From: Methanoregula sp.
GTDB lineage: Archaea > Halobacteriota > Methanomicrobia > Methanomicrobiales > Methanospirillaceae
Reading direction: 5' to 3'
Length of the DNA: 64,000 nucleotides
NCBI GenBank assembly: GCA_030694985.1
Contig: JAUYTV010000037.1
Location: 62,001-126,000, forward strand
Part shown: positions 15,525 through 21,180 of the stretch, one piece after another
Position numbering within the stretch: the first letter of the stretch is position 1
Layout of the letters: the number at the start of each line of letters is the position of its first letter
Notes under the pieces: generated by a model
The model's database searches: none
The model's input: the letters and a program-made list of their open reading frames with translations, nothing else
Told to the model about the DNA's origin: nothing
Made by a program: the position numbers and the translations under genes

Positions 15525-15747
15525 TTATCGGAATTCTCGTTTGAAATCCTCAATCCCGATCCCTGCCTGCTTGAGAATCCCTATAAGAGTGCCTTTCTTT
15601 AGTTCCCTATGAAGGGGAACAAAAAAAGACCCGCCACTCTTTCTGGACGATAACGTGACTCGAGGTCTGCCGCTTGGCATCAAAATCATGGTTCGCGAGG
15701 TACTTGACGAGATCCTCTCCGGAGATAACCGGGAGTTTATGCGACAT
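15525..15747 (-). pseudogene. hicA: HicA-like toxin, frameshifted
   Basis: MSHKLPVISGEDLVKYLANHDFDAKRQTSSHVIVQKE in one frame, then FFVPLHRELKKGTLIGILKQAGIGIEDFKREFR* in the next; a 7-A run at 15621-15627 lies at the switch. Confidence 0.8.
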
Positions 15748-15961
15748 CTGCCACTTCGAGCTTTGAGATCTCCCGATGTAGCGCGGAGGAGGTCTTGTTC
15801 AGCTCTTCCCGCTGCACTTCCAGAACAAGTTCTATTGCTTCTTTGATATTGGCAAGCGCTTCTTTACGGGTCTCACCCTGGCTGATCGCACCAGGGATCT
15901 CCACACACTGAACTGTGAAACCTCCCTCTTTTTGAGGTTCAAGCACTACCGTATATTTCAT
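15737..15961 (-). CDS. hicB: HicB-family antitoxin
   Basis: MKYTVVLEPQKEGGFTVQCVEIPGAISQGETRKEALANIKEAIELVLE. Confidence 0.9.
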   Translation of the reverse strand: MKYTVVLEPQKEGGFTVQCVEIPGAISQGETRKEALANIKEAIELVLEVQREELNKTSSALHREISKLEVADVA

Positions 15962-16110: not shown

Positions 16111-17170
16111 AAAGTTGTTTTTGCCAATTCCTTTTTGATTGTTTTTAAAAAATTCCTTTTTGGTCCACTATACGTGAAAACAATCAGATTTTTCAGGGTT
16201 CCATGTCAGCGTCGATGCCGACGGTACCGGATAGTGTATCTCCTACCCACGAATCCGGGCCTTTTGCGGGCTTGGATTCCCCCTTTCCGGAGGTGTTTTT
16301 GCCATATTACTGCAAAAAAGTGTACACTTTTACACACTATTTTAAAATACGCTGTATTCTTGAGATTCGGGCCAAACGGGGTGTTATCCTTTGAGTTATA
16401 AAACGCTATTGTACGCTATTGGGAGGCAAAAGTCAGGAAGCATGATGGGTAACAGCGTCAATGAGAAAAAAAGGGCTGTTTTGGGGTTTCTGCCGGGATC
16501 CTTGTTTTCGCCAATTCCCTTTTGGTCCACTAAACATGAAAACGATTAGATTTTTCTGGTGTCCGTGTCAGCGTCGATGCCGACGGTACCGGATAGTGTA
16601 TCTCCTACCCACGAATCCGGGCCCTTTGCGGGCTTGGATTCCCCTTTTCCGGAGGTGTTTTTGCCATATTCCTGCAAAAAAGTGTACACTTTTACACACT
16701 ATTTTAAAATACGCTGTATTCTTGAGATTCAGGCCAAACGGGGTGTTATCCTTCGAGTTATAAAACGCTATTGTACGCTATTGGGAGGCAAAAGTCAGGA
16801 AGCATGATGGGTAACAGCGTCAATGAGAAAAAAGGGCTTTTTTGGGGTTTCTGCCGGGATCCTTGTTTTCGCCATGTTTTCGCCAATTCCTTTTTGGTCC
16901 ACTAAACATGAAAACGATCAGATTTTTCAGGGTTCCGTGTCACCGTCGATGCCGACTGTACCGGATAGTGTATCTCATACCCACGAATCCGGGCCCTTTG
17001 CGGGCTTGGATTCCCCTTTTCCGGAAGTTTTTTTGCCATATTCCTGCAAAAAAGTGTACACTTTTACACACTATTTTAAAATACGCTGTATTCTTGAGAT
17101 TCAGGCCAAACGGGGTGTTATCCTTCGAGTTATAAAACGCTATTGTACGCTATTGGGAGGCAAAAGTCGG
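16111..17170. repeat. three tandem ~362-372-bp imperfect repeat copies
   Basis: GTCGATGCCGACGGTACCGGATAGTGTATCTC...AAAAGTGTACACTTTTACACACTATTTTAAAATACGCTGTATTCTTGAGATTC...GCTATTGTACGCTATTGGGAGGCAAAAGTC at three positions (offsets 362 and 372). Confidence 0.95.
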
Positions 17171-17665
17171 AGTGTCTGGGGGGTAGCACGGTCGCGTGGA
17201 TTAGAAGGGCTGTTTTGAGAGGTTTTTTGGTATCAGCAAAATGGCCGGGTGTGGGAGTTCTCTCATGTGCACGCAGGGGTATCCACACAGAACCCCTGCT
17301 CTTCCGGATGAGAGAGGCTACTTCGGGTATCTGTCCCGGCCCGGACCGGGTATCTTCCCCTGCAACCATTTTAAAAAAAGATGGGACATACCCCCGGATT
17401 CCAGATGCTCTGACCCGCCTAGGAAACTCTCCCATCATAATCATTAAGACAGCACGCACCCTTTCATCACGTACTGATACCTGCGATAAAATAAAAATGA
17501 GATTCCATGACAAATCCGTGGTGATATGTGACGTTTTAGCGTGGGTTTACTCCTGTGATTAAGAGCGCACAGGAATATATGCAGTTTCTGTATATTGGAA
17601 TTTTTCCGCGGGATATTCAAACGGGCAGATGCCCGCATAAAAAATCTTAAAAAAGGTGTGTAACG

Positions 17666-20600
17666 ATGAAAAAATCAGACGACTTCTCCACCGAAAAGAA
17701 AGTCAGTACAGGAAATGACTGGTCAAGTCCGAAAAAAGCCATGACTGCCCGTAAACAAAAAGCCCGGGCTGATCAAAATGACACGGGCACCACTCCCTGT
17801 GAAGTAAACTTTCCCATTGTCGGCATCGGCGCGTCTGCCGGCGGACTCGAAGCGTTCGAACTCTTCTTCAAAACCATGCCTCCTGCGAGCGGCATGGCAT
17901 TTGTCCTCGTCCCTCACCTTGACCCGGGCCATGCCAGCATGCTGTCAGATATACTCCAGCGGAACACCACGATGCCCGTCCATGAGGCACAGGACCAGAT
18001 AAAAATCCAGCCCAACCACGTCTACATCATCCCGCCGGGCAAGGACATGGCGATCTTCCATGGCGCAATCAGCCTGAGTGTTCCGGAACTGGCCCGGGGA
18101 CTGCGGTTGCCGATCGACGCATTCTTCCGGTCACTGGCCGAAGATCAGGGTGAACGGGCGATCTGCGTGATCCTCTCCGGCAGCGGATCGGATGGCACTC
18201 TCGGGCTCCGGGCCATCCATGGTGTTGGGGGTGTCTCGTTTGTGCAGGAACCCACCACCGCAAAATATGACGGCATGCCTTCAAGCGCTGTCCAGAGCGG
18301 GCTTGCCACCTACGTGATGCCTGTCGAAAAGATCACTGAACAGCTGGTCGCCTATGTAAAGACCATTGCAGATACCGGTATTCCTCCTGCCCCGCCGGTT
18401 CCTGCGGCATTGAGTGCCATGCGGCGCATCGCGATGCTCCTGCGGACAAAGACCGGCAATGACTTTTCCCAGTATAAGCAGAGCACCATCCGGCGCAGGA
18501 TCGAACGGCGGATGGTGGTGCACAACATCGCGGATATGGATGCCTATGCCCGGTACCTCTCTGAGACCCCACCCGAGGTCCATATTCTTTTTAAGGAACT
18601 GTTAATCAACGTGACCAGTTTTTTCCGGGACAAAGAAGCGTTCGATGCGCTGAATAAAGAGGCGCTGCCCCTCCTGTTTGCGGATAAACCGGAGGACTAT
18701 ATCTTCCGGATCTGGGTGCCGGGGTGCGCCTCCGGAGAGGAAGCCTACTCGCTTGCCATGCTCTTCCGCGAGTACATGGACCAGATCAAACAGGAGTTCA
18801 GGCTCCAGATCTATGCAACTGATATCGATGACGATGCGATTGCAACCGCACGGGCTGGGTTATACCCGGCAAATATCGCGATCGATGTTTCACCCGAACG
18901 GTTGCGGCGGTTCTTTACCAAAGAGGAGGCCGGCTTCCGGATCAAAAAAGAGATCCGGGAGCAGGTCGTCTTTGCGATCCAGAACGTGATCAAGGACCCG
19001 CCGTTTACAAAGATGGACCTGATCAGCTGCCGGAACCTGCTCATCTATCTCGATGCGGAACTCCAGAACCGGGTGATTCCGGCGTTTCATTACGCGCTCA
19101 GGCATGAGGGCGTGCTCTTTTTAAGTCCTTCAGAAGGTATCGGGAATTTTACCGATCTCTTCGGACCGCTCGATAAGAAGTGGAAGGTCTACCGGATCAA
19201 ACCCTCATTATTATCTGCCCGTTCACTGGTCGCCCAGCGCTTTGCGTGGGCCGGCGAACAGATTGAGAAGTTATCTGGTGAGGTTGCGGGAAAGACAGAA
19301 AAGATCGACAAGACAAACTTTGCCGAGCTCACCAGACGTGTACTCCTCCAGTCATTTGCCCCACCGTCCGTGATTACCGATGCGAAAGGAACTATCATCT
19401 ACGTGCACGGCAACACGGGAAAATATCTCCAGCCGGCACCGGGCCAGCCCAGCAACAATATCATCGATATGGCACGCGAAGGACTCCAGCTGGATTTACG
19501 CTATGCCCTCCAGAACGTTGCTACGCAGAAGAGACCATGGGTTGTAAAAGACCTGCCGGTCAGGACTAATGGCGGCATTCATGGCGTTGACTTAACGGTA
19601 CGGCCCCTTGCCGACCCGGAGGCAACCCGGGAACTGCTGCTGATAAGTTTCCAGGATGCCGACGTGCACCCTCCAGAAAAACGAAAGACCGCAAAGCGTG
19701 CAGCCGGAAAAAGCGAATCAAAGCGCGTGGAGGAACTCGAGCAGGACCTTGCGTATACCAAAGAGAACCTTCAGGCAACGATCGAGGAGATGCAGGCAGC
19801 CAACGAGGAACTCAAGTCCACCAATGAAGAACTGCAATCCACCAACGAAGAGCTCCAGTCCACCAATGAGGAACTCGAAACATCCAAAGAGGAACTCCAG
19901 TCGGTGAACGAAGAGATCGTGACGGTGAACGCCGAACTTCAGGCAAAGATCGAGCAGCTTACAGATATCCAGAACGATATGAAGAACCTGCTCGAAAACG
20001 TCAATATCGGTACGATCTTTTTAGACGAACATCTCGCGATCAAACGCTTCACCCGCGATGCCACAAAGGTGTTCCGGCTTGCGGCAACGGATACGGGACG
20101 CCCGCTTGCCGATATCCGGTCGCTGATTCCGGATGTGGATCTGGTCATCGATGCACAGGCGGTCCTTGATTCACTCATACCACGGGAGAAGCAGGTGCGG
20201 TCTGCAGATGGCCAATGGTATCTGGTCCGCATCATTCCCTACCGCACGCTGGAGAATGTGATCGATGGCGTGGTGATGACCTTCACAGAAATCACCGCAT
20301 TAAAAACACTGGATGCTGAAGTCCGGCTTGCCCGTGATTATGCAGAGAGCATTGTGAACACGGTCAGGGAACCGTTAGTTGTCTTAAACGGAAAGTTTGA
20401 AGTGGTCTCGGCAAGCCGGGCGTTCTATACGACCTTCGAGGTGAAACCGGAAGAAACGCAGGGCAATGTGCTCTACAAGCTCGGGAATAACCAGTGGGAC
20501 ATTCCCCTGCTCCACGAGCTGCTGGAGAAAGTGCTGCCCAAGAACCGGTCGTTTGACAATTTCCTCGTTGATCACGCATTCCCCGGCATAGGACAGAAGA

Positions 20601-20745: not shown

Positions 20746-21180
20746 ATGGCTGCGGGAAAGAAACTGACAAAAAAGAGCGGTACAGGTCACTCTCCGGCAT
20801 CCCGCGAGACCGTAGTGTCGTTAGTCCCGCCCGCACTACCGGGGGATCTCCGGTCACTTATTGATGCTACACGGGTCCGGGTCGCTTTCGGTATTAATAC
20901 CGAGATGGTCCTGCTCTATTGGGATATTGGCGAGCGCATCCGAAAAGAGATTCTTAAGGATGAACGTGCAGCGTATGGTAAACAGGTAGTCAATACCGTA
21001 TCCGATCAACTGACAATGCAGTATGGTCGTGGATTTACGAGAGCAAACCTGTTTCATATGCTCCATTTTTTCGAAACATTCCCTGACCGGAAGATTGTCT
21101 ACTCACTGAGTGGACAATTGAGCTGGACTCATTTCAGGAACATTATTTACATAAAAGACTCCCTTGCACGGGAAGGATAA
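20746..21180 (+). CDS. truncated DUF1016 N-terminal domain (YhcG-like) protein
   Basis: LRSLIDATRVRVAFGINTEMVLLYWDIGERIRKEIL...AAYGKQVVNTVSDQLTMQYGRGFTRANLFHMLHFFETFP...LSWTHFRNIIYIKD then stop. Confidence 0.8.
   Translation: MAAGKKLTKKSGTGHSPASRETVVSLVPPALPGDLRSLIDATRVRVAFGINTEMVLLYWDIGERIRKEILKDERAAYGKQVVNTVSDQLTMQYGRGFTRANLFHMLHFFETFPDRKIVYSLSGQLSWTHFRNIIYIKDSLAREG

Follow-up and report, generated by a model that had tools for sequence, protein, structure and literature searches.

A tandem triplicate of a dispersed intergenic repeat family in Methanoregula, with a gene pair beside some of its copies

Introduction

Small protein genes adjoining tandem non-coding repeats are seen in type III toxin-antitoxin loci, and dispersed intergenic repeats that bear palindromes and sometimes stand in tandem are represented by the REP, BIME and ERIC families. 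Here we describe a repeat of Methanoregula that recalls both. Its core, which we call EL, is likewise dispersed, intergenic and sometimes tandem, but is longer (~255 nt) than REP-type repeats and is a patchwork of conserved blocks that has no conserved fold; whereas REP is linked to the REP-associated tyrosine transposase, EL is linked to a gene pair, p1-p2. Like type III loci, EL can place tandem non-coding repeats beside a small protein gene; however, it comes downstream of the genes, beyond an apparent terminator, its units (~255-390 nt) stand alone in most cases, and we found no RNA structure in it. The MITEs of prokaryotes offer a further comparison: EL is short, non-coding, multi-copy, intergenic and lineage-restricted, and a longer coding unit sharing its sequence occurs within the same genomes, but terminal inverted repeats and target-site duplications are not detectable and the partner is no recognised transposase (PMC10969869).

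Results

The window is the whole 64-kb stretch of DNA that was analysed, positions 62001-126000 of contig C34 in genome G000 (2.49 Mb, 58 contigs). Its array sits in a non-coding gap between a HicB/HicA pair (minus strand, 15525-15961) and a CheB-CheR-PAS gene at 17666 (plus strand), and consists of three direct units, in register over 300 nt, at 16151, 16513 and 16885 (Table 1). Their spacing of 362 and 372 nt is that of the original prediction, and units 2 and 3 are 95% and 93% identical to unit 1 (93-95% overall). The predicted extent of 16111-17170 falls short at the 3' end, where the third core continues to 17219. Each unit carries the predicted perfect 16-bp palindrome AAAAGTGTACACTTTT, exact in all three and found nowhere else in the window when up to two mismatches are allowed (0.04 expected by chance). 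Also confirmed were a CGTCG-ATGC-CGACG stem altered in copy 3 (CGTCGATGCCGACG is present in copies 1 and 2 only), a direct repeat in every unit (CGCTATTGTACGCTATTG, 3/3), and local duplications near the CCTTTTT segment in copies 1 and 3, which appear as an extra copy near CCAATTCC/CTTTTTG at 16115/16140 (repeat family D2) and as a doubled TTTTCGCCA in copy 3.

Two trivial origins had been envisaged for this organisation. The tandem copies do not look like an assembly artefact, because the three cores diverge from one another by about 3-11% and a homologous array, about 90% identical and with the same 5' flank, is present in G012:C254. Nor does anything seen point to a known protein-coding gene in decay: open reading frames that cover the unit keep a common frame in some stretches, but they are broken up and unlike between copies, and a protein-coding reading was rejected. 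Two genes in the vicinity appear damaged. hicA (15525-15747), beside hicB (15737-15961, minus strand), is split over two frames, so that the toxin gene looks broken, and what appears to be a truncated gene lies between two sensor kinases and the CheB-CheR-PAS gene, a 144-aa DUF1016 N-terminal fragment (20746-21180; PADLOC PDC-S02).

Table 1. Features of the array, in window coordinates
Feature	Position	Strand	Basis or remark
EL copy 1, conserved core of unit 1	16233-16486	+	nhmmer, genus-wide family profile, E 6.5e-71; also whole-genome model R1
EL copy 2	16595-16847	+	nhmmer, genus-wide family profile, E 2.9e-71
EL copy 3	16967-17219	+	nhmmer, genus-wide family profile, E 1.4e-71
5' hairpin module, copy 1, GAATCCGGGCC..GGGCTTGGATTC	16250-16281	+	alignment of 31 copies and alignment A2
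5' hairpin module, copies 2 and 3	16612-16643, 16984-17015	+	same alignments as copy 1
Palindrome AAAAGTGTACACTTTT, private to the array	16316-16331, 16678-16693, 17050-17065	none	exact matches
Most conserved block AACGCTATTGTACGCTATTGGGAGGCAA, two 10-bp direct repeats	16404-16431	+	alignment; shared by the other two copies
Spacer between cores 1 and 2	16487-16594 (108 bp)	+	weakly conserved outside nearest relative
Spacer between cores 2 and 3	(119 bp)	+	weakly conserved outside nearest relative
Partial 5' spacer copy before core 1, with local duplication	16111-16232	+	repeat family D2; homologous to G012:C254

The core of each unit is a well-supported member of a dispersed Methanoregula repeat family. 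The proposed BLAST of one unit against its own genome returned further copies at C30:103699, C10:6266 and C55:4176 and divergent ones on C35, C4, C20, C50 and C36 and at C34:191759, several of them adjoining contig ends; the repeat is multi-copy in its own genome, as it is in the genus, and has a conserved core of ~255 nt, outside which conservation drops. DNA searches found matches in 25 of the 60 relatives, and these 25 belong to a single genus. A sequence-only model (R1, built from 27 copies) placed EL in 38 of 39 Methanoregula genomes at 1-52 copies each, with weak matches in G107, of a sister genus, and matches to a degenerate pattern of the most conserved block were confined to Methanoregula and unnamed Methanomicrobiales MAGs. 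We found no description of the repeat in the literature and no described family for it in the libraries searched (Rfam for DNA). A viral or plasmid origin was rejected: EL had no match in IMG/VR (two patterns) or a phage collection, and p2 had no relative among viral contigs, plasmids and phages.

Across copy alignments, EL conserves a 5' hairpin (AATCCGGGCCC..GGGCCCGGATT), TGCAAAA, TGCAAAAA, GTACACTTTTACACAC, GCCAAACGGGGC, an inverted GCGTTTT..AAAACGC, GGGAGGC, GGTAGCACGGTC, CTGTTTTGGGG and the iterated ACGCTWWTGKACGCTWWTGGGAGGC, together with direct repeats of 10-bp period, ACGCTWWTGK ACGCTWWTGG. The palindrome and the CGTCG-ATGC-CGACG stem, presented originally as key features, are not conserved by the family: AAAAGTGTACACTTTT and CGTCGATGCCGACG each occur in 3 of 85 copies, the palindrome being private to the window locus. 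The 5' hairpin is a separable module, because matches in a G001 subfamily that lacks it begin only at model position ~77. The 12-nt versions between GCGTTTT and AAAACGC were considered as a specificity block and dismissed, other stretches of EL being equally overdispersed.

Immediately upstream of several ELs, on the same strand, lies the gene pair p1-p2. p1 (~135 aa) carries the motif KDPEIPYVKFExAxRDLVCSLMERQDRMNEE; p2 has ~147 aa. At linked loci EL is always downstream of p2; a gap of 88-121 bp separates it from the p2 domain match in eight cases (L152, L155-L160, L162), and a longer one in others. The chance of finding p2 so close is roughly 2e-4 per EL, against 9 of 85 observed (p about 3e-22, an approximate value because the 85-copy sample mixes loci found via EL and via p2, most of its p2-linked ELs being recovered by EL searches also). 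Solo ELs outnumber linked ones: the flanks examined for most copies, including the window's, are free of p2, and none of the ELs that model R1 finds in G020 is p2-linked. G020 also holds two copies of a 1736-bp p1-p2-EL unit that are 97.7% identical and whose immediate flanks are unrelated, and one more copy at 81% in a different context; the unit has short CCGATGC/GCATCGG ends and no recognised transposase.

Neither p1 nor p2 belongs to an accepted family in Pfam, NCBIfam or PADLOC, and a defence system was set aside on the PADLOC result. p2 is multi-copy in Methanoregula; it also occurs in further genera of this family and, outside the family, in a single genome of a different one. Its AlphaFold model (pLDDT 82) finds its best Foldseek matches in the archaeal Hjc Holliday-junction resolvases (probability 1.00, E 5e-4, a modest TM of 0.38-0.52), and a PD-(D/E)XK, archaeal Hjc-like fold is predicted. 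Unlike Hjc, p2 has no sequence-family match, and its alignments mostly keep the Asp but show Lys or Arg at the position of the catalytic Glu of ExK, which we placed by the residue spacing of Hjc rather than by superposition. p2 thus seems to lack the catalytic glutamate and, because no complete catalytic set is obvious, is probably not a nuclease, putatively binding DNA rather than cutting it.

Several further observations concern the surroundings of these genes. Two loci of close genomes, L135 and L161, carry different genes between p2 and EL, MNT-HEPN-like as read from the sequence, that end at the 5' edge of EL; downstream of EL in L135 (412-2497) and L161 stand at least three tandem units of ~740 bp encoding lipoprotein-like proteins of ~200 aa. 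Another gene family that is multi-copy in Methanoregula, with an N-terminus of MADFVQ.. and without a Pfam match, occurs near p1-p2 units, in the left flank of L147 and at L166:3-473, and the p1 reading frame of L155 resembles it at the N-terminus. At one shared site (G017:C1:1351392-1352780 and G020:C1:1280775-1282816) the flank is 95% and the 5' end of the unit 82% identical, with p1 and p2 strongly diverged.

Between p2 and EL we read a short GC hairpin followed by a T-run, so the p1-p2 transcript probably does not include EL. This would make EL a separate unit, and with its random orientation, tandem arrays and conserved blocks it would suit autonomous small genes; EL may be an unstructured small RNA gene. 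We nevertheless consider it unlikely that ELs are independently transcribed small non-coding RNA genes, solo and tandem. Rfam gave no match at E<=1, single-sequence folding is ordinary (z -0.91 on the plus and 0.21 on the minus strand), and RNAalifold proposed almost no consensus structure (three pairs at -0.85 kcal/mol on the plus strand, few weak pairs on the minus strand). The covariation check suggested for the stems supported no pair above a tree-based null (best E 3.7), and a TATA-like box is not conserved, being found in 14 and 21 of 85 copies at two candidate places. On folding, covariation and Rfam, the structured RNA that the original prediction had allowed for is not supported, and we rejected it.

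EL copies are intergenic: none of 85 overlaps an open reading frame over 300 aa, which upholds the prediction of a non-coding repeat and extends it to a family that is multi-copy across the genus. Their orientation to neighbouring genes shows no preferred class (15/12/11/9). Close tandem ELs, undercounted because many genomes are fragmented, occur at 6 of 73 loci; they are spaced 311-386 bp apart and never in opposite orientations. Of 78 ELs, 29 have their nearest copy at another locus within their own genome (shuffles averaged 6.2, with a maximum of 17); ELs have been amplified within genomes. The 10-bp-period direct repeats and dyads would suit a DNA-binding protein, and EL might be a regulatory or architectural site for a repressor, nucleoid or segregation protein, selectively kept at many loci. 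This we hold to be improbable: one orthologous site shows 72% identity in EL and 86% in the genes that flank it, so per-site selection is not strong, and ELs have neither consistent neighbour genes nor a consistent orientation to promoters.

Dispersal to intergenic sites, within-genome expansion, truncated copies and copies at contig ends are features that EL shares with a non-autonomous mobile element, MITE- or REP-like, that some transposase would move while p1-p2 are passengers or a co-opted neighbour. Dispersal and expansion support the mobile element that the original prediction had offered; the terminal signatures of MITEs were looked for and not found. Terminal inverted repeats score at background (mean local score 7.28 against 6.69 shuffled, 78 copies), direct repeats of at least 7 resembling target-site duplications number 12 against 10.2 expected by random pairing, and no transposase was found. 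We rejected a classical MITE on these grounds, and a fixed distance behind p2 would be unexpected of a passenger. Neither was a clean empty site definable at the C10 site, where homology between genomes stops near the stop codon of the gene. Taken on both sides, movement by a transposase is a somewhat doubtful explanation.

Breakpoints between related genomes fall at EL edges (5' in L135/L161 and L331/L333, 3' in L331/L333). Homology between G021 and G008 ends at a distance of about 15 bp from the 3' end of an EL, beside tRNA-like sequences, and the DNA just 5' of EL at the orthologous site above is unrelated.

Where ELs of the same contig are separated by 1.5-16 kb, they nearly always share one orientation (G021:C5, G008:C15, G061:C22 and others), in regions that are partly orthologous, so that these counts are not independent. 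This orientation and the presence of toxin-antitoxin genes suggested an integron-like array, which we rejected: unlike attC sites, which delimit single-gene cassettes, the ELs of G021, G008 and G061 are separated by long blocks of ordinary genes, as read by eye. A replication-strand polarity, suggested in G033 alone, was dropped when G062 and G029 did not show it.

G012:C254 is the closest relative of the window array, followed by the copy on C30 of the same genome and by G012:C47, both p2-linked, and the window copies group with p2-linked ELs. The two loci differ in the stretch from a RidA-like gene to the array, which holds HicBA in the window. The array is thus older than the split of the G000 and G012 lineages and, with no p1-p2 nearby, it is an orphan today.

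Discussion

We identify EL as a multi-copy intergenic repeat family of Methanoregula that is associated, at a subset of loci, with the p1-p2 gene pair. It behaves as a spreading element and, like MITEs, is a short, multi-copy, non-coding sequence, yet two of their defining features were not found in it. Tentatively, we favour the view that the window feature is an orphan tandem array of this Methanoregula-specific element, and that EL is a cis-acting DNA site putatively bound by p1-p2-type proteins, with binding or recombination spreading it. Binding, or recombination and duplication at EL, could account for both spread and tandem growth, and the window array may have arisen from a copy of the p2-linked type that was tripled by local tandem duplication and is now without adjacent p1-p2. 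That p1-p2-type proteins bind EL, and that this binding drives its spread, is what we infer. In favour of this view are the genus-wide family, its expansion within genomes, the fixed short distance behind p2, the grouping of the window copies with p2-linked ELs, the p2 fold model, the repeated unit of G020 and the breakpoints at EL edges; against it are the many ELs that have no p2 in the flanks examined and the modest TM-scores of the Hjc match.

A bolder form of this proposal, about which we are rather doubtful, is that Methanoregulaceae possess in p1-p2-EL a selfish or maintenance module that is lineage-restricted: the catalytically degenerate Hjc-fold p2 would recognise the adjacent EL, favour both its dispersal and its tandem growth, and leave orphan arrays behind.

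EL is a repeat family borne by every good-quality Methanoregula genome examined and, given its presence at several contig ends, it may contribute to the fragmentation of Methanoregula assemblies. p1-p2 is a linked two-gene family undescribed in Pfam, NCBIfam and PADLOC as searched. If p2 does bind EL, a resolvase fold would have been put to new use, as partner to a DNA element that spreads.
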